Below, piece by piece: positions 23,434 through 58,134 of a stretch of 64,000 bases of DNA. The stretch's first letter is position 1; each line of letters begins with the position of its first letter. The stretch is from Methanomassiliicoccales archaeon (lineage in GTDB: Archaea > Thermoplasmatota > Thermoplasmata > Methanomassiliicoccales > UBA472). Under the pieces are notes generated by a model. The model did no database searches. It saw only the letters and a program-made list of their open reading frames with translations, and was not told where the DNA came from. The stretch spans positions 138,547 through 202,546 of the forward strand of contig JAPKYK010000003.1 of NCBI GenBank assembly GCA_026394395.1, read 5' to 3'. A program made the position numbers and the translations under genes.

Positions 23434-23521
23434 TGGAGCTGGGACCGAGATTTGAACTCGGGTGTGCGGATAACCGCCTTGTGGACTGCAGTCCGCCACA
23501 TGGCCGCTCTGTCATCCCAGC
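23434..23521 (-). tRNA. tRNA-Cys (GCA) with a 14-nt intron at 37/38
   Basis: Read on the minus strand, the acceptor GCTGGGA pairs with TCCCAGC, the T arm is CCGAG-TTCAAAT-CTCGG, the discriminator is T (as in tRNA-Cys), and CCA is encoded. The anticodon stem GCGGA/TCCGC only forms if 14 nt (TCCACAAGGCGGTT) are removed after CTGCAG. The precursor then folds as a bulge-helix-bulge: CTGC pairs with GCGG, with three-base bulges AGT and TTA carrying the cuts. The D stem is short (three pairs). Spliced, the loop reads CTGCAGA with anticodon GCA. Confidence 0.88.
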
Positions 23522-47677: not shown

Positions 47678-50296
47678 ATGTCACAGTATGAAGCGATACC
47701 CACGGAGAGGAAGTGGCAGAAACAGTGGAAGGACTGGGAGCTGTACAAGTTCGAGATGGATTCCGATCGGCCGGTCTATTCCATCGACAACCCGCCCCGC
47801 TACGCCTCTGGCGCCCTGCATCTGGGCCACGCCACCGGCTATTCGCTCATCGATTTCGCCGCCCGTTACCACCGGCAGCGCGGCTACAATGTCATGTTCC
47901 CCCTCTGCTTTGATGTGAACGGCACGCCAGTGGAGGTGAGGGTGGAGAAGAAGTTCGGCATCAACAAGTACTCCGTGCCCCGCCAGAAGTACATCGAGAT
48001 GTGCGAGGAGTACGCCAACTCCTTCATCGAGTCCATGAAGGCCCAGTTCGAGATCCTAGGGGAGAGCATGGACCCCTCCGTCTACTATCAGACGGACGCT
48101 CCTTATTACAGGCGCATCACCCAGATCACCTTCATCAAGATGCTGGAGAAGGGGCTCGCGTACAAAGGTGAGTACCCGGTCAACTGGTGCCCGCGCTGCA
48201 TAACGGCGTTGGCGGACGCCGAGGTGGAATACGACCAGAACGTCACCAAGCTTAACTACGTCAAGTTCCCCCTGGCGGACCTAGACGAGAATATAATCAT
48301 CGCCACCACCCGCCCGGAGCTCATCTGCACCTGCCAGACCATCGCCGTGCATCCTAACGACGCACGCTACGCGGAACTAGTCGGCCAATACGTCATCACC
48401 CCGGTGTTCGGGAAGAAGGTCAAGGTCATCGCCGACGAGAAGGTCGACCCGGCCTTCGGCTCCGGCATCGTCATGATCTGCACCATCGGGGACAAGACCG
48501 ACCTGGAATGGGTCATGAAGTACAAGCTGCCCCTGGACAAGGGTATCGACGAGGAAGGGCGCATGACGGCCATAGCCGGTCCTTACGAGGGCATGCCGGT
48601 GAAGGACGCCCGAGCCAAGATCATCAAGGACCTGCTGGCCCAGGGCCTCATAGTCAAGCAGGAGGAGCAGGTGCAGAACCGCAGCATCTGCTGGAGGTGC
48701 CACGCTCCCATCGAGTTCCTGCAGGTCAAGCAGTGGTTCCTCAAGACCATGCCCTTCAAGGAACAGGTGCTGGCCAAGGCCGACGAGATAAAGTGGTTCC
48801 CGGAGTTCATGAAGGTCCGGCTGCAGGACTGGGTCAACTCGCTGCAGTGGGACTGGGTGCTGTCGCGTCAGCGCTACTTCGCCACGCCCATCCCGGTGTG
48901 GGAGTGCCAGAACTGCGATTTCGTGCTGCCGGCCAAAGAGGAAGATTGTTACATGGACCCCACGGTGAAGAATCCGTACCTGGAGAAGTGCCCCATGTGC
49001 GGCGGGGAGCTGAAGGGCTGCCCGGACGTGTTCGACACCTGGATGGACTCCTCCGTGTCGCCGCTCTACAACACCTTCTGGAAGCGGGACGAGGAGAAGT
49101 TCAAGAAACTGTACCCGATGTCCCTGCGGCCGCAGTCGCATGACATCATCCGCACCTGGGCCTTCTACACCATCCTACGGGAGTATCTGCTTACTGACGA
49201 GAAGCCCTGGGAGCACATCATGATCCACGGGTTCATCATGGCTCCGGACGGAACGCCGATGCACACCTCGATCGGGAACGTGATAGACCCCATGCCGCTG
49301 CTGGAGAGCTATGGGACGGACGCTCTGCGCTACTACGCCTGCACCTGCACTCTAGGCGAGGACCACGCCTTCCGCGAGAGGGACGTCGTGCACGGCAAGA
49401 AGCTGTGCACCAAGATCTGGAACCTCGGCAAGCTCATCGAGATGACGGTGACGGAGAGGCCGGAGAGGGTGCAGTTGAAGCCCATCGACCGCTGGATCAT
49501 GAGCCGCTACACCAAGGTCCTGGAGACGGTCACCGGGCATCTGGACAACTACAATTTCGATAAAGCGATGCGGGAAGTGGAGAACTTCGCCTGGAAGGAG
49601 TTCGCCGACCACTACGTGGAGATGACCAAGCACCGCACGCGGACCAACGACAAATCCGTGCGTTACACGCTGTACACGGTCTACCTGGGCATACTGAAGA
49701 TGATGGCCCCGATGCTGCCGCACGTGACCGAGGATGCGTACCAGGCGTTCGCCGCCATGGACGACTCGAAGTCCATCCACATCAGCAAGTGGCCGGAGCC
49801 GGAGCACATCGACGAGGAGGCGGAGGTCAAGGGCGAGCTGACCAAGGACATCATCGCCGCCGTGCGCACCTGGAAGGCGGAGAAGAAGTATCCTTTGAAC
49901 AAGGAGCTCCTGAATGTGGAGATCGTCGGAAAGGGCGCCTTGGCCTTGAAGGGATATGAACAGGACATCGCCATGACCGTGCGCGCGGGCAGGGTCGAGG
50001 TCCTGGAAAAGGTCCAGCTGAACGAGTGCCCCATTCAGGTGAAACCGGTCCACGCCAAGATCGGCCCCCTGTTCAAGAACCTGGCCCGGGACGTGGTAGC
50101 GCAGATCGCGGCCATCGAACCGGAGACGGCCATGCGAAAGCTGGCCGAAGGCGGGTTCGAGGTCACCCTGGACAACGGGCGGTCGGTGCTCATCACCAGC
50201 GACCTGGTGGAGGTCGTCTGCGAGCTGCAGTTCAAGGGAAAGTCCGTGGAGACCATTCAGGTCAGGGACCTGCTGGTGGTCATTGAAGTCAAATGA
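47678..50296 (+). CDS. valS: Valyl-tRNA synthetase
   Basis: The 872-residue class I enzyme has the HIGH motif in YASGALHLGHATGY, zinc-type cysteines (NWCPRCITA, CWRCHAP), an editing CP1 domain with IIATTRPELIC, WDWVLSRQRYF, and GCPDVFDTWMDSSVSPL. In the KMSKS position the sequence reads GTPMHTSIGN, so the first lysine is replaced and the motif becomes PMHTS. The C-terminal anticodon domain is complete; length is in the normal archaeal range. T-rich AACCTTTTTTAAACC precedes the gene, serving as terminator/TATA region. Confidence 0.95.
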   Translation: MSQYEAIPTERKWQKQWKDWELYKFEMDSDRPVYSIDNPPRYASGALHLGHATGYSLIDFAARYHRQRGYNVMFPLCFDVNGTPVEVRVEKKFGINKYSVPRQKYIEMCEEYANSFIESMKAQFEILGESMDPSVYYQTDAPYYRRITQITFIKMLEKGLAYKGEYPVNWCPRCITALADAEVEYDQNVTKLNYVKFPLADLDENIIIATTRPELICTCQTIAVHPNDARYAELVGQYVITPVFGKKVKVIADEKVDPAFGSGIVMICTIGDKTDLEWVMKYKLPLDKGIDEEGRMTAIAGPYEGMPVKDARAKIIKDLLAQGLIVKQEEQVQNRSICWRCHAPIEFLQVKQWFLKTMPFKEQVLAKADEIKWFPEFMKVRLQDWVNSLQWDWVLSRQRYFATPIPVWECQNCDFVLPAKEEDCYMDPTVKNPYLEKCPMCGGELKGCPDVFDTWMDSSVSPLYNTFWKRDEEKFKKLYPMSLRPQSHDIIRTWAFYTILREYLLTDEKPWEHIMIHGFIMAPDGTPMHTSIGNVIDPMPLLESYGTDALRYYACTCTLGEDHAFRERDVVHGKKLCTKIWNLGKLIEMTVTERPERVQLKPIDRWIMSRYTKVLETVTGHLDNYNFDKAMREVENFAWKEFADHYVEMTKHRTRTNDKSVRYTLYTVYLGILKMMAPMLPHVTEDAYQAFAAMDDSKSIHISKWPEPEHIDEEAEVKGELTKDIIAAVRTWKAEKKYPLNKELLNVEIVGKGALALKGYEQDIAMTVRAGRVEVLEKVQLNECPIQVKPVHAKIGPLFKNLARDVVAQIAAIEPETAMRKLAEGGFEVTLDNGRSVLITSDLVEVVCELQFKGKSVETIQVRDLLVVIEVK

Positions 50297-50803: not shown

Positions 50804-50876
50804 GCGGGTGTAGTGTAGCTGGTTATCACTTGAGCTTGCCAAGCTCATAACTCGGGTTCAAATCCCGGCGCCCGCA
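50804..50876 (+). tRNA. tRNA-Gly (GCC)
   Basis: Acceptor GCGGGTG/CGCCCGC, anticodon stem TGAGC/GCTCA around TTGCCAA (anticodon GCC), T arm around TTCAAAT, and discriminator A. No intron; CCA is not encoded. TATA-like TTTAAATGC lies about 30 bp upstream. To its right the base composition falls sharply and the accessory region begins, so its 3' end is a possible integration site. Confidence 0.95.
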
Positions 50877-50918
50877 CTCTCATCCATAGTCAGCATATAA
50901 AAATGGAGAGAAGGGGTT

Positions 50919-51734
50919 TTAAGAATCTTTCTTTGCTGCCCCCTTTAACCTCGAAATTTTCTTTTGAAGAGTCTGAAGATAAAGGATTAAATCATCAACG
51001 ATGTCTATATCCGATTTTACCTTAACATAAAAATCCTCTGTTTGGATAATGTGCCAGCCGAGGTTTTCCTGGCTTTGCTTTTCCGATGATTTTTCAGTCA
51101 ATGGGACATCGATTGGACTGACATTTTCCGAGAGTTCGGTTGGTTGATAAGGAGTCGATGTCTTGGATTGACCTCCGAAGGATAGCCCCCTTTCGTCTCT
51201 GACGATGATACCTGTGTAAATGAGATATTCTAATAGGGTTCTCAGTGCAAGCTGCTCTTTTATTTTATCTGTTTGAGCGGCAATTGCTAACTCCCCGAGG
51301 AATTTATCCTCGGACATTATTGGTTCGTTACTAAAAACTGATGTTGCTATTTCAGCAAACCATGTTTTCACAATAAGAGCGGCCAGTATTGGTCTTGCTT
51401 TATCATCACTCACGGATTTCGCATTGATAAATTGTATTGCTTCCTGAGTTGGAACATATAATCCACGATCCGAGGGAGTAATCAGCCCGATATCCCGTAA
51501 AAATCGGACATTCATTGATGCTGCTTGTGCAGGAATCCCCTCCCCTTCTATTTGAGATGCGGAAATTCCACTTGATCTTCTTTGGTTGACAATCCTCTTA
51601 AGAACATCAAACTGGACCTGAAAACTATGTCTATTGGAAGGAAGGACATATCTGCTATATACCCTAGCTTTCCTTTTTGCTCGTTCATCCTTATCTTCTT
51701 CTGGTTTTACACTTGGTTTGGTTGATTGTTCCAT
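50919..51734 (-). CDS. Hypothetical protein, possibly DUF5343-like, in the accessory region
   Basis: The 271-residue, lysine-rich protein has AT-rich codons unlike its left neighbours. Residues about 40-190 read as a helical domain with two winged-helix-like parts (ISASQIEGEGIPAQAAS ... FLRDIGLITPSDRGLYVPT; later LLEYLIYTGIIVRDERGLSF). The pattern of 'few repeats, then stage-specific Leu' resembles DUF5343, a family often near defence genes; this is tentative. A disordered Ser/Glu/Gln-rich linker leads to a C-terminal coiled coil (DIVDDLILYLQTLQKKISRLK). It is second in a leftward pair with the SAP-nuclease gene. Confidence 0.55.
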   Translation of the reverse strand: MEQSTKPSVKPEEDKDERAKRKARVYSRYVLPSNRHSFQVQFDVLKRIVNQRRSSGISASQIEGEGIPAQAASMNVRFLRDIGLITPSDRGLYVPTQEAIQFINAKSVSDDKARPILAALIVKTWFAEIATSVFSNEPIMSEDKFLGELAIAAQTDKIKEQLALRTLLEYLIYTGIIVRDERGLSFGGQSKTSTPYQPTELSENVSPIDVPLTEKSSEKQSQENLGWHIIQTEDFYVKVKSDIDIVDDLILYLQTLQKKISRLKGAAKKDS

Positions 51735-51814
51735 GTTATAAACCTCTTATATGGAGTAAAAGATGTTTGTTATATATATATTATTACCTTATTATGTAGT
51801 ATATGTTTTCATAT
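51735..51814. other. Highly AT-rich spacer
   Basis: The gap upstream of the 50919-51734 gene is nearly pure A/T (runs such as TTATATATATATTATTACC). It includes likely TATA elements for that gene. No coding potential. Confidence 0.5.
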
Positions 51815-52027
51815 TCATATTAACATGTTATACATATTATGTAACATAAAATAATAATGTATATTATTGTACAATATTTCTAAAACAAGGTATTTCACCA
51901 CGGCTATCGCCCCTCCTATCACAAAGATAGTTAGGTAATAGAGTTGAACCGGGATGGGGTGATTATTGGTATTTATGATAATCCCGACCAGAGGGAAAAA
52001 AGATGGAGGATAGTAAGCTCCTCTCAA
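51815..52027 (-). CDS. Possible small membrane protein (70 aa)
   Basis: A TTG-started frame begins at 52027, overlapping the TGA of the upstream nuclease gene in a TTGA coupling. The product has two hydrophobic stretches (FFPLVGIIINTN and LTIFVIGGAIAVVKYLVL) and a tail of Tyr/Asn/Met from AT-rich DNA. It could be a membrane partner of the nuclease, or chance coding in AT-rich sequence. No family recognised. Confidence 0.3.
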   Translation of the reverse strand: MRGAYYPPSFFPLVGIIINTNNHPIPVQLYYLTIFVIGGAIAVVKYLVLEILYNNIHYYFMLHNMYNMLI

Positions 52028-53517
52028 CCCTTTTTTATCAAAATAAATGGGTGATTGTGTAAGACCGCATACTTGCTTATTCTATCGCTGAAGTCCTCAA
52101 GCTCATCCAGGAATTTTGGTTTACACACCACGACAATTACATTGTGATATGCATCGAGATGGCGGAATACCTGACCAAACGCTCTGTCCAGCTCCCCGCC
52201 CCTTGGCGACTTCTTGACTTCGATGGGATAGTTTTGATCGACGAGAATATCGACCAGGGTATCTCCCGCTTCCATTCTCGTGGTATGACCCCTTCCCGAA
52301 AGGAATGCGTTTAGATCAGCCCTATAACCATCTTCAGAAGCATAGGATATTGTGGGAAGCCACGCATCGATATCACGCACCAAGACATCAAACCCGGCAT
52401 CTCCTTTGACCGAGATGGTTGATTTCCTACTGGGGGTTGAAGGAATGACCTGAGTTGCCTTAGGCTCCGATTTGGGTTTGTGCTTATCTACACCAAACAA
52501 ATCGCGTAACAAATCATCCATCTGGTCATCTTTGCTGCGTCTCCGAGGCAGGTCATAAGCTGATGCAATCGAATTAAGTGAAATACCATCGAGCGCACTC
52601 AATACCGACTCTGGTGATCCATCGCAGCTCTGAACTATCCTGAGGATAAGCTCATCCTTTTTCCCTGAGACTGGTTCTCCCAGTTTATACAATGCTGACT
52701 TCAACGCTTCTTTGTCCAATACATCCAAGACATCAAGCAACAGATTGCCTTCTTTGTCTTTCGATTTGGCCTTGGGTTTGGTCTCTGCTACGGAGGACGC
52801 TTGGAGCGGTATCGGTTTTGCAACCGACACAATTCCAAATTGAGCTTCCAATATCTCGCTTACTTGCTCATCTTTCAAGCGCTTTCTTTGAATACCGTAT
52901 TGAGAAGCCAGATATTGTAGGTTGGCCAGGTCGATCATTGGAATGATCAACTGAGGGTTGCCGTTCTGGGAATTGATTAAACGAAGGACAATCTCGTTCT
53001 TATTCCCGGAAATCGCCTGGTCAAACCTCATTAATAATGACTGAAGAGATTCCTTGTCCAGACTTAGCAGCATATCATACAATTTCTTACTTGGTTCGTC
53101 TTGATAAGGGTTAGACGATTGAGAGCTTTCGACGGGTGGTGTATGTTGAGTAGTAAATGTCAATTCTGATTTAGGCGTACTTTGAGTTGGTAAAACAGAC
53201 GGTTGAAAATGGTTCGGTTCCTCATCAACAATCTCATTCAAGATCGTATTGATAATATCGCCTTTCGAGGCCAGTCTAAATTTGGACAGTAAGCTTGCAC
53301 TTGTCTTCTCATTCCTGATTATGTTGGCCAAAATCATCTGGGGCATTCTCGATAGTAGAGGAGCAGCGTTGGTTTTATTGAAGTTCTTTTCTACAATCGC
53401 CAGCATTTCGCGCTTTGAACCGGTATAAGGAAGCCCCGACGATTTCATCATTATGGAAATGTCTTCCTTTTGGGCGTACTTATCCATTAAGTCTACTATC
53501 CGCATCGATGACTGCAA
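52024..53517 (-). CDS. SAP-repeat protein with C-terminal PD-(D/E)XK nuclease domain
   Basis: The 497-residue protein has at least three SAP-like helix-turn-helix modules, each with the pattern LDKESLQSLL...ISGNKNEIVLRLI (near residues 1-50, 145-180, 260-300). SAP modules bind DNA. Residues about 385-497 form a restriction-endonuclease-like core: an early helix with ED-GYRADLNAFLS, D423 in LVDILV, then E433 and K435 in IEVKKS, and a late VIVVVCKP strand. This is the D...E-x-K catalytic set. Ser/Pro/Lys-rich linkers join the parts. No known defence system is matched. It starts at ATG 53517. Confidence 0.7.
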   Translation of the reverse strand: MQSSMRIVDLMDKYAQKEDISIMMKSSGLPYTGSKREMLAIVEKNFNKTNAAPLLSRMPQMILANIIRNEKTSASLLSKFRLASKGDIINTILNEIVDEEPNHFQPSVLPTQSTPKSELTFTTQHTPPVESSQSSNPYQDEPSKKLYDMLLSLDKESLQSLLMRFDQAISGNKNEIVLRLINSQNGNPQLIIPMIDLANLQYLASQYGIQRKRLKDEQVSEILEAQFGIVSVAKPIPLQASSVAETKPKAKSKDKEGNLLLDVLDVLDKEALKSALYKLGEPVSGKKDELILRIVQSCDGSPESVLSALDGISLNSIASAYDLPRRRSKDDQMDDLLRDLFGVDKHKPKSEPKATQVIPSTPSRKSTISVKGDAGFDVLVRDIDAWLPTISYASEDGYRADLNAFLSGRGHTTRMEAGDTLVDILVDQNYPIEVKKSPRGGELDRAFGQVFRHLDAYHNVIVVVCKPKFLDELEDFSDRISKYAVLHNHPFILIKKG

Positions 53518-53623
53518 GGTACCTGAGTGGGGTTAATATTTTCTATTGTAGACTTCTTAATAAAAAGGAAAAAGACGGGAAAGGGTTTTCCTAACCCCTT
53601 TGATTGAAACCAAAATATTAATG

Positions 53624-53659
53624 TCTGGCTAGTCTCGGGTTCGAATCCCGACGGATGCA
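53624..53659 (+). other. tRNA 3' fragment (T arm and acceptor half), possible att remnant
   Basis: TCGGG-TTCGAAT-CCCGA (53635-53651) is a perfect T arm, followed by CGGATGC and A, the 3' acceptor strand and discriminator. No 5' acceptor GCATCCG or anticodon stem lies upstream. Such lone tRNA 3' ends are typical attachment-site copies left by integrative elements. No integrase gene is in the window. Confidence 0.7.
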
Positions 53660-53712
53660 CATACTGATATATATTCCTTAAATAAAATAAGATGAAAAGG
53701 GTTTTATGAGCT

Positions 53713-53795
53713 GGCCCCGCGTAGCGCCCGAAAATTGATTTCAATATTTTCTTATCTGGCTCAAGTGACGCGTAGTCCCGGATTAGCCCACCATA
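53713..53795 (+). repeat. Degenerate dispersed repeat, copy A
   Basis: This copy starts GGCCCCGCGTAG and, 41 bp on, has ATCTGGCTCAAGTGA, then a C/G-rich tail. Copy B at 58195 has GGCCCTGCGA and the same 15-mer 42 bp on. The intervening parts share AAATTGA-TTTCAAT. Function unknown. Confidence 0.6.
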
Positions 53796-53904: not shown

Positions 53905-53960
53905 GGCCCCGCGTAGTTCGAAATGACAATCACCAATTGTTTTTAATCATGAATTGATGT
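53905..53960 (+). repeat. Partial dispersed repeat, copy A'
   Basis: GGCCCCGCGTAG recurs exactly (53905-53916), followed by a CAATCACCAATTG-type stretch and AATCATGAATTGATG, but the 15-mer tail is lost. Related to copy A by its 12-bp head only. Confidence 0.45.
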
Positions 53961-57010: not shown

Positions 57011-57028
57011 GGCCCTGTTGCAAAACTA
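57011..57028. repeat. Left terminal inverted repeat of the IS
   Basis: GGCCCTGTTGCAAAACTA, identical to the reverse complement of 58135-58152. It is the outer end next to the transposase stop. Confidence 0.9.
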
Positions 57029-58018
57029 GTTTGACCAGAACTCCTTCCTCATGGCCAGCTGGATCAGGTTGAACAGGCAGAACTTGATCCGCACCTCATT
57101 TTTCCGAGCAGCTTTCGTCCAGCATCTCAGCCGATAACCGAGCAAAGCATCAATCATGCTGAACACCGTTTCGGAATGAGCGCGCTTCGCCGTTAACGCG
57201 GCGAAGCGCTTCGGCCAGTGCTTTGCGAAGCTGACCAGCTTCTGGTACAGCGTCTCAGGCTCCACGACCAGCTTGGCGTTCTTCTTGATCTTGTGAAAAG
57301 GCGTGGCACCGTGCTGCCTGGCCACGGCCAGGCAGTCGTTGCCCACGTAGGCGGAATCGGCCAGACTTCGTTTGGGGACGACGTTATCGGGCAAACGGTC
57401 CCAGACGTTCCAGGACGTCTGGGACTCGTGTACGTTCGAGTCTGAGAGGTAATAAGCCAGTATGACGAACTCGTCCACCTCGATGACGATGTTCGCCTTC
57501 ACCCAGTCCTGCTTCGCGCGTTGGGCGTGCGGCGTCTCACGCCAGCCTCGCTTCCTGCCAGAGTATCCAGTGGCGTCGGTCGAGGCGACAACCTTCCTGG
57601 TCGGAAGGTCCGAGAGAATATGCTGGATGAACCGTTCCAGCACGACCGCGAAGCGGTCCGACTGGATCATCCGGCATAAGGTGGAATAATCTAGAATGGT
57701 CTCGATGGAATAGTAGTCCTGCATCATTGCCAGCATTCCTTCCGTCTCACGGAAGGTCAGGTCCAGCAGCTGCTGGACCAGGAATCCGATGAGCACGACG
57801 CACTCATCGTATGCTGGCCTTCCGGTCGGTCTCCTCCGCTGCCAGAACGAGAACTCATCGGCATGTAGGCGAATGGCCTCCATGGCCAGGCGGAGGCCGT
57901 TGACAGCCAGATCGTCGTATCGATCAAAATCCATTGTCACCTTCTCGAACTGGATCGAGAAGGTGTCAAGGTGCGTCTGCCCGGAAAAATTGAATATCGA
58001 GCGCGGTATCTCTATCAT
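57026..58018 (-). CDS. IS transposase (DDE, IS5/DDE_Tnp_1-like)
   Basis: From ATG 58018 the 330-residue protein has the catalytic triad as D148 in ASTDATGYSG, D221 in LADSAYVGND, and E283 in HSETVFSMID. An N-terminal helical domain includes DECVVLIGFLVQQLLDLTFRE. The pattern R-x(3)-E-x(2)-F around the last acid, with K/R-rich ends, is like IS5-group enzymes. It appears intact, so the element may be active. The stop lies inside the left inverted repeat. Codon use is intermediate between the island and the core genome. Confidence 0.9.
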   Translation of the reverse strand: MIEIPRSIFNFSGQTHLDTFSIQFEKVTMDFDRYDDLAVNGLRLAMEAIRLHADEFSFWQRRRPTGRPAYDECVVLIGFLVQQLLDLTFRETEGMLAMMQDYYSIETILDYSTLCRMIQSDRFAVVLERFIQHILSDLPTRKVVASTDATGYSGRKRGWRETPHAQRAKQDWVKANIVIEVDEFVILAYYLSDSNVHESQTSWNVWDRLPDNVVPKRSLADSAYVGNDCLAVARQHGATPFHKIKKNAKLVVEPETLYQKLVSFAKHWPKRFAALTAKRAHSETVFSMIDALLGYRLRCWTKAARKNEVRIKFCLFNLIQLAMRKEFWSN

Positions 58019-58134
58019 TGTGACTGTCAAACAACTACCATCCTGAACAGCTGGTATATGGTGACAGCCACACATATAAATTTCTATAACAATATAGATA
58101 ATACAGAATAATTATATTGTCAGAGTGTCGGATT

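Follow-up and report, generated by a model that had tools for sequence, protein, structure and literature searches.

The window analyzed here is the whole stretch of 64,000 nucleotides from a Methanomassiliicoccales methanogenic archaeon; the nearest homologues come from members of its genus and family with the names UBA472 and fen_33. A large synthetase-like gene ends at position 50296, upstream of an intact tRNA-Gly(GCC) gene on the forward strand (50804-50877), which was identified by tRNA prediction and by comparison with relatives. Past this tRNA the ORFs are on the reverse strand and encode a 271-aa protein (50919-51734, hereafter the partner), a possible 70-aa product (51815-52027) and a 493-aa protein with SAP domains and a nuclease domain (52024-53505, hereafter the SAP-nuclease). 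At the far end, a tRNA 3' fragment consisting of the T-arm and the 3' acceptor strand was detected on the forward strand (53634-53660). No methyltransferase-like ORF was found within 50878-53634 using the ORF list and Pfam, and no integrase was present among the ORFs of this module. Elsewhere in the window (23434-23521) there is a tRNA-like gene to which ARAGORN gave no identity.

The GC content was about 0.60 before tRNA-Gly(GCC), mostly 0.34-0.55 just past the tRNA, and went back up only near 59.9 kb, the IS excepted. The module itself has a GC content of 0.413; in the window as far as 50.8 kb, the value is 0.583. The initial annotation described the genes as lying next to a tRNA and an IS. 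The tRNA is indeed adjacent, but a distance of 3.5 kb, with a regulator and an ABC transporter, separates the module from the IS transposase (57026-58075).

Similarity to relatives stopped at the 3' end of tRNA-Gly(GCC). The fragment at 53634-53660 retains an intact T-arm in the same orientation as tRNA-Gly(GCC), from which it differs at 5 of 27 nt (81% identity), while only one mismatch in 25 nt separates it from the tRNA-Gly(UCC) of two relatives. It is likely an att remnant. The AT-rich module is thus located between tRNA-Gly(GCC) and a tRNA-Gly(UCC)-like remnant, and therefore resembles a tRNA-targeted insertion. From the sequence it looks like an insertion of about 2.8 kb with non-identical ends and no integrase; its own integrase may have been lost or never carried. 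Only UBA472 (G003) and G005 allowed a good reading of what occupies the tRNA-Gly site, as the contigs of most relatives stop soon after tRNA-Gly. Just outside the tRNA remnant, in low-GC sequence, an exact 12-nt repeat, GGCCCCGCGTAG, occurs at 53713-53724 and 53905-53916.

The nearest homologue of the SAP-nuclease was found in UBA472, inside a 5.3-kb element in tRNA-Gly(UCC). In this element, the SAP-nuclease homologue is located between the pieces of a fragmented integrase gene and a Rep-like gene. As att core, the element has 13 nt of the tRNA 3' end repeated exactly, or 16 nt with the following bases. The locations of the module and of the UBA472 element suggest that both carriers use tRNA-Gly genes.

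The SAP-nuclease more likely starts with the ATG at 53505 than with the TTG at 53517, four codons earlier, giving 493 rather than 497 aa. The gene pair reported in the initial annotation was confirmed as real genes at 52024-53505 and 50919-51734, with a correction of this TTG start. The SAP-nuclease was supported by its ORF, the Pfam SAP match, homologue alignment, AlphaFold2 and a duplication test. In its architecture, an N-terminal SAP is followed by a SAP-containing unit that is present twice and, at the C-terminus, by a PD-(D/E)XK domain (residues ~367-493). Pfam SAP matched residues 272-296 with an E-value of 7e-7 and 29.2 bits, above the cut-off of 23.9, and SAP_new25 matched residues 16-47 of the 497-aa form with an E-value of 0.0016, under the Pfam cut-off. 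The unit of about 92 aa is present in two copies (residues ~135-225 and ~249-339), and its internal duplication gave a local score of 179, whereas shuffled sequences averaged 33 and reached at most 55. These results agree with the earlier description of a multi-SAP protein. The homologues from UBA472 and fen_33 (G014), both Methanomassiliicoccaceae, likewise had an N-terminal SAP, a SAP unit and a C-terminal nuclease, with 33% identity to the SAP-nuclease overall and 43-44% in the nuclease domain. However, the SAP-containing unit occurs only once in them, and they lack a partner homologue and have other neighbours. Searches of PADLOC and NCBIfam gave no family match for the SAP-nuclease, and Pfam gave SAP alone.

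The nuclease domain (52024-52407, reverse strand), defined by alignment, AlphaFold2 and fold search, comprises the C-terminal 127 residues and was modelled by AlphaFold2 with two close homologues aligned (pLDDT 90.5). The modelled elements H25-38, E43-45, E54-56, E60-66, H71-87 and E90-95 form the alpha-beta-beta-beta-alpha-beta core of PD-(D/E)XK proteins. Residues D419, E429-x-K431 and Q445 were invariant in the SAP-nuclease and its two close homologues (n=3), and the lysine of ExK was missing from a distant relative in G023. The complete D...ExK core with the corresponding fold, as proposed in the initial annotation, was therefore upheld by the model and by consistent fold matches; a missing fold was one of the two outcomes that the initial annotation had named as refuting its module. 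All Foldseek matches were weak (E above 0.001) and none was individually significant, yet they were consistent in family. Those in BFVD were headed by phage PD-(D/E)XK and restriction endonuclease proteins, and those in the PDB by archaeal XPF, with EndoMS, Mus81 and EcoT38I among the best 25; PDB sequence searches gave no relevant match. On the basis of the model, we are confident in predicting a PD-(D/E)XK fold for the C-terminus, and the protein may accordingly be a DNA-cleaving enzyme.

The rank of archaeal XPF at the top of the PDB matches, with EndoMS and Mus81 lower, would fit a chromosomal DNA-repair nuclease of the XPF/Mus81 or EndoMS type, and SAP domains are common among repair proteins. 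Such a role is nevertheless very improbable, being disfavoured by a patchy distribution: close homologues were detected in just 2 of 60 relatives, the gene lies in a low-GC, tRNA-linked insertion, and the fold matches on which the comparison depends were not significant.

The partner had no significant match in Pfam, NCBIfam or PADLOC. Its AlphaFold2 model from the single sequence was uninformative (pLDDT 38.6); it shows a C-terminal helix and two regions predicted to be wHTH-like, and the winged-helix domain and coiled-coil tail described earlier stand at the level of this low-confidence model. The gene is supported by its ORF and by a profile search for the family. The first homologue came from G164, where the gene is broken by a frameshift. 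A 322-aa HEPN-like protein of G164 was considered as the homologue and rejected, the true match being the adjacent frameshifted gene. A two-sequence profile of the partner and the G164 protein recovered G563 (E 2e-57, 40% identity), G506, G554 and, weakly, G546. Since the profile recovered further members in Thermoplasmatota, the partner family is real but rare.

The initial annotation also regarded the partner as DUF5343-like. At E<=1, no partner match to DUF5343 (PF17278) or PDC-M34A was obtained in Pfam or PADLOC, and hhalign gave probabilities of 2.2%, 2.4% and 0.3% with shallow profiles. A search of the whole genome with the DUF5343 profile identified a true member at C4:9746 only and not the partner. 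None of these profile tests supported the assignment, and the likeness of the partner to DUF5343 is architectural at best: by eye, the N-terminal wHTH-like region and the C-terminal strand-plus-helix tail of the PDC-M34/DUF5343 candidate defence pair in PADLOC resemble the partner. The neighbours differ, as the PDC-M34/DUF5343 pair has a HEPN-like neighbour, whereas the partner is beside a PD-(D/E)XK nuclease.

The true DUF5343/PDC-M34A gene of this genome (G000:C4:9746-10165; L042:1471-2175) is followed by a HEPN-like gene (L042:2228-2755) that matched PD-T7-3 weakly. The same order was found in G051 (L043:1480-2112 and 2109-2633). The HEPN-like call in both genomes was based on an RNxxxH-type motif recognized by eye. 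DUF5343 had no match in the viral contigs, and the literature search returned no mention of DUF5343 or PDC-M34. As these true DUF5343 proteins, with a layout broadly similar to that of the partner, precede a HEPN-like gene, the pair could be envisaged as toxin-antitoxin-like, with the nuclease as a suicide effector restrained by the partner. We consider this improbable: the partner is not a DUF5343 protein by the profile tests, and the nuclease homologues of UBA472 and fen_33 occur without a partner homologue, which is unexpected if the toxin needs this antitoxin.

The 70-aa ORF begins with a TTG that overlaps the stop codon of the nuclease gene, and it has one hydrophobic stretch. No family match was obtained in Pfam, PADLOC or NCBIfam, and a stop-free run as long as this ORF occurred in 6% of shuffles of the 306-bp stretch. 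It was therefore not counted as a gene. The ORF exists, but its proposed status as a small membrane protein coupled by TTGA was not accepted.

When 300 genomes of the class were searched with profiles, SAP-nuclease relatives were identified in seven other genomes (G003, G014, G023, G419, G124, G532 and G535), and their neighbourhoods suggested an association with mobile elements in several cases. In fen_33, the contig that encodes the homologue also has a terminase gene, and a PDC-M19A-like gene lies 1.6 kb from the homologue. G124 has a pair of nearly identical integrated elements (L039, L040) at a distance of about 17.5 kb, and each encodes a tyrosine and a serine recombinase. Both carry a gene pair composed of a wHTH gene and a distant SAP-nuclease-like gene, with the wHTH gene 15 bp upstream. 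Some relatives matched endonuclease VII and RusA-like phage families weakly. For the SAP-nuclease and the partner themselves, searches of the viral contigs with single sequences and alignments gave no match.

The strongest alternative for the nuclease is a role in the life cycle of the element itself, such as DNA processing, resolution or maintenance, rather than host defence. The position of the UBA472 homologue between the integrase fragments and the Rep-like gene, the presence of the G124 relative in both copies of a recombinase-encoding element, and the weak matches to endonuclease VII and RusA-like families all point in this direction. However, the SAP-nuclease ORF has stayed intact though the window keeps no other element gene. 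The distant relative of G419 has no recognizable mobile genes nearby, and it fits defence nucleases better than resolvases, its nuclease domain matching LmuA in PADLOC (E 5.5e-7) and the DpnII-MboI restriction endonuclease in Pfam (E 3e-4). We therefore regard the element-processing role as doubtful, though it retains appreciable weight.

Members of the partner family were detected in four other genomes of the 300 (G506, G546, G554 and G563), and no genome except this one encoded both families. The initial annotation had named, in advance, a lack of co-occurrence elsewhere as an outcome that would refute its candidate defence module; with relatives in seven and four other genomes and none shared, the non-overlapping genome sets do not support a conserved two-gene module. 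The more distant partner relative of G164 was not beside a SAP-nuclease relative either. It belongs to an island (L044:3400-10554) with a serine recombinase, an R.HinP1I-type restriction endonuclease, a DNA methylase, a wHTH protein and a HEPN-like protein. In G563 (L052:7143-8676), the partner homologue shares 29 bp with an HNH-type gene, which matched both HNH_2 and ZorE weakly. The same contig encodes a HEPN protein (Hypoth_Ymh; PD-Lambda-3_B/Aga_HEPN-like) and an integrase, and this locus is a possible defence island. The homologues of G506 and G554 are surrounded by ordinary genes. In some genomes, the partner family is near other nucleases.

For the pair, the strongest alternative is that the two genes have no functional relation and were gathered side by side as cargo at a tRNA hotspot. 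In agreement with this, no other searched genome contains both families, the nuclease homologues have different neighbours, and the partner and SAP-nuclease genes are separated by 289 bp of AT-rich sequence, which makes co-transcription uncertain. On the other side, both genes are on the same strand, share the same low GC and lie between the tRNA end and the remnant; the G563 homologue shares bases with a nuclease-like gene; and the distant SAP-nuclease relative of G124 has a wHTH gene immediately upstream. Unrelated cargo is a serious possibility that falls a little short of even odds. Unrelated cargo and element processing are not all mutually exclusive with the reading that we prefer.

We consider it about evenly probable (roughly 0.5) that the module is mobile cargo in which a DNA-tethered nuclease, probably for antiviral defence or inter-element conflict, lies beside a wHTH-like cargo gene. 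The tandem SAP modules would hold the DNA and the metal-dependent PD-(D/E)XK domain would cut it. The target would most likely be competing invading DNA such as viruses and plasmids, in a restriction-like defence or inter-element conflict with no methyltransferase alongside. The wHTH-like partner would probably regulate expression of the island or aid target recognition, judging from the neighbours of its family. Both the antiviral role of the SAP-nuclease and its functional link with the partner are presumptive. As the pair was found side by side here only, it represents a plausible but unproven antiviral cargo and not an established two-gene system.

Compared with known systems, the restriction-like nuclease fold is common to the module and type II restriction-modification, but the module has no methyltransferase gene and its target handling is predicted to be SAP-based. 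The DpnII-MboI/LmuA-type PD-(D/E)XK nucleases were matched by the G419 relative and not by the SAP-nuclease itself, and unlike Lamassu and DpnII-type systems the module contains neither a methylase nor a Lamassu SMC gene. The literature search returned no matching system of SAP-domain nucleases in defence. The earlier statement that no known system fits thus agrees with the PADLOC and NCBIfam results; since both families are absent from these libraries, neither library would report them. A broader and unlikely extension would be an undescribed archaeal antiviral system in which the duplicated SAP units set nuclease targeting and the new-family wHTH partner licenses the nuclease and can serve other nucleases, such as the HNH-type protein of G563, the system being spread by small elements preferring tRNA-Gly genes.

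A 2026 survey indicated that Thermoplasmatota are low in CRISPR-Cas prevalence and retain several candidate systems, mostly unvalidated (PMC12988326); unrecognized systems in this phylum would therefore not be surprising. The gene pair described here is a candidate and no demonstration of a defence system. The candidate defence module of the initial annotation was not supported as a conserved pair, but a weaker idea of defence persists, as each family has members whose settings are mobile or defence-like. Nuclease cargo of uncatalogued families at tRNA-Gly genes provides a concrete place to search for missing systems. At the tRNA-Gly(GCC) site of UBA472 (L022:2600-4507), a Schlafen-group-3 helicase/NERD protein matched the candidate defence gene PDC-S41 of PADLOC (E 4e-129).
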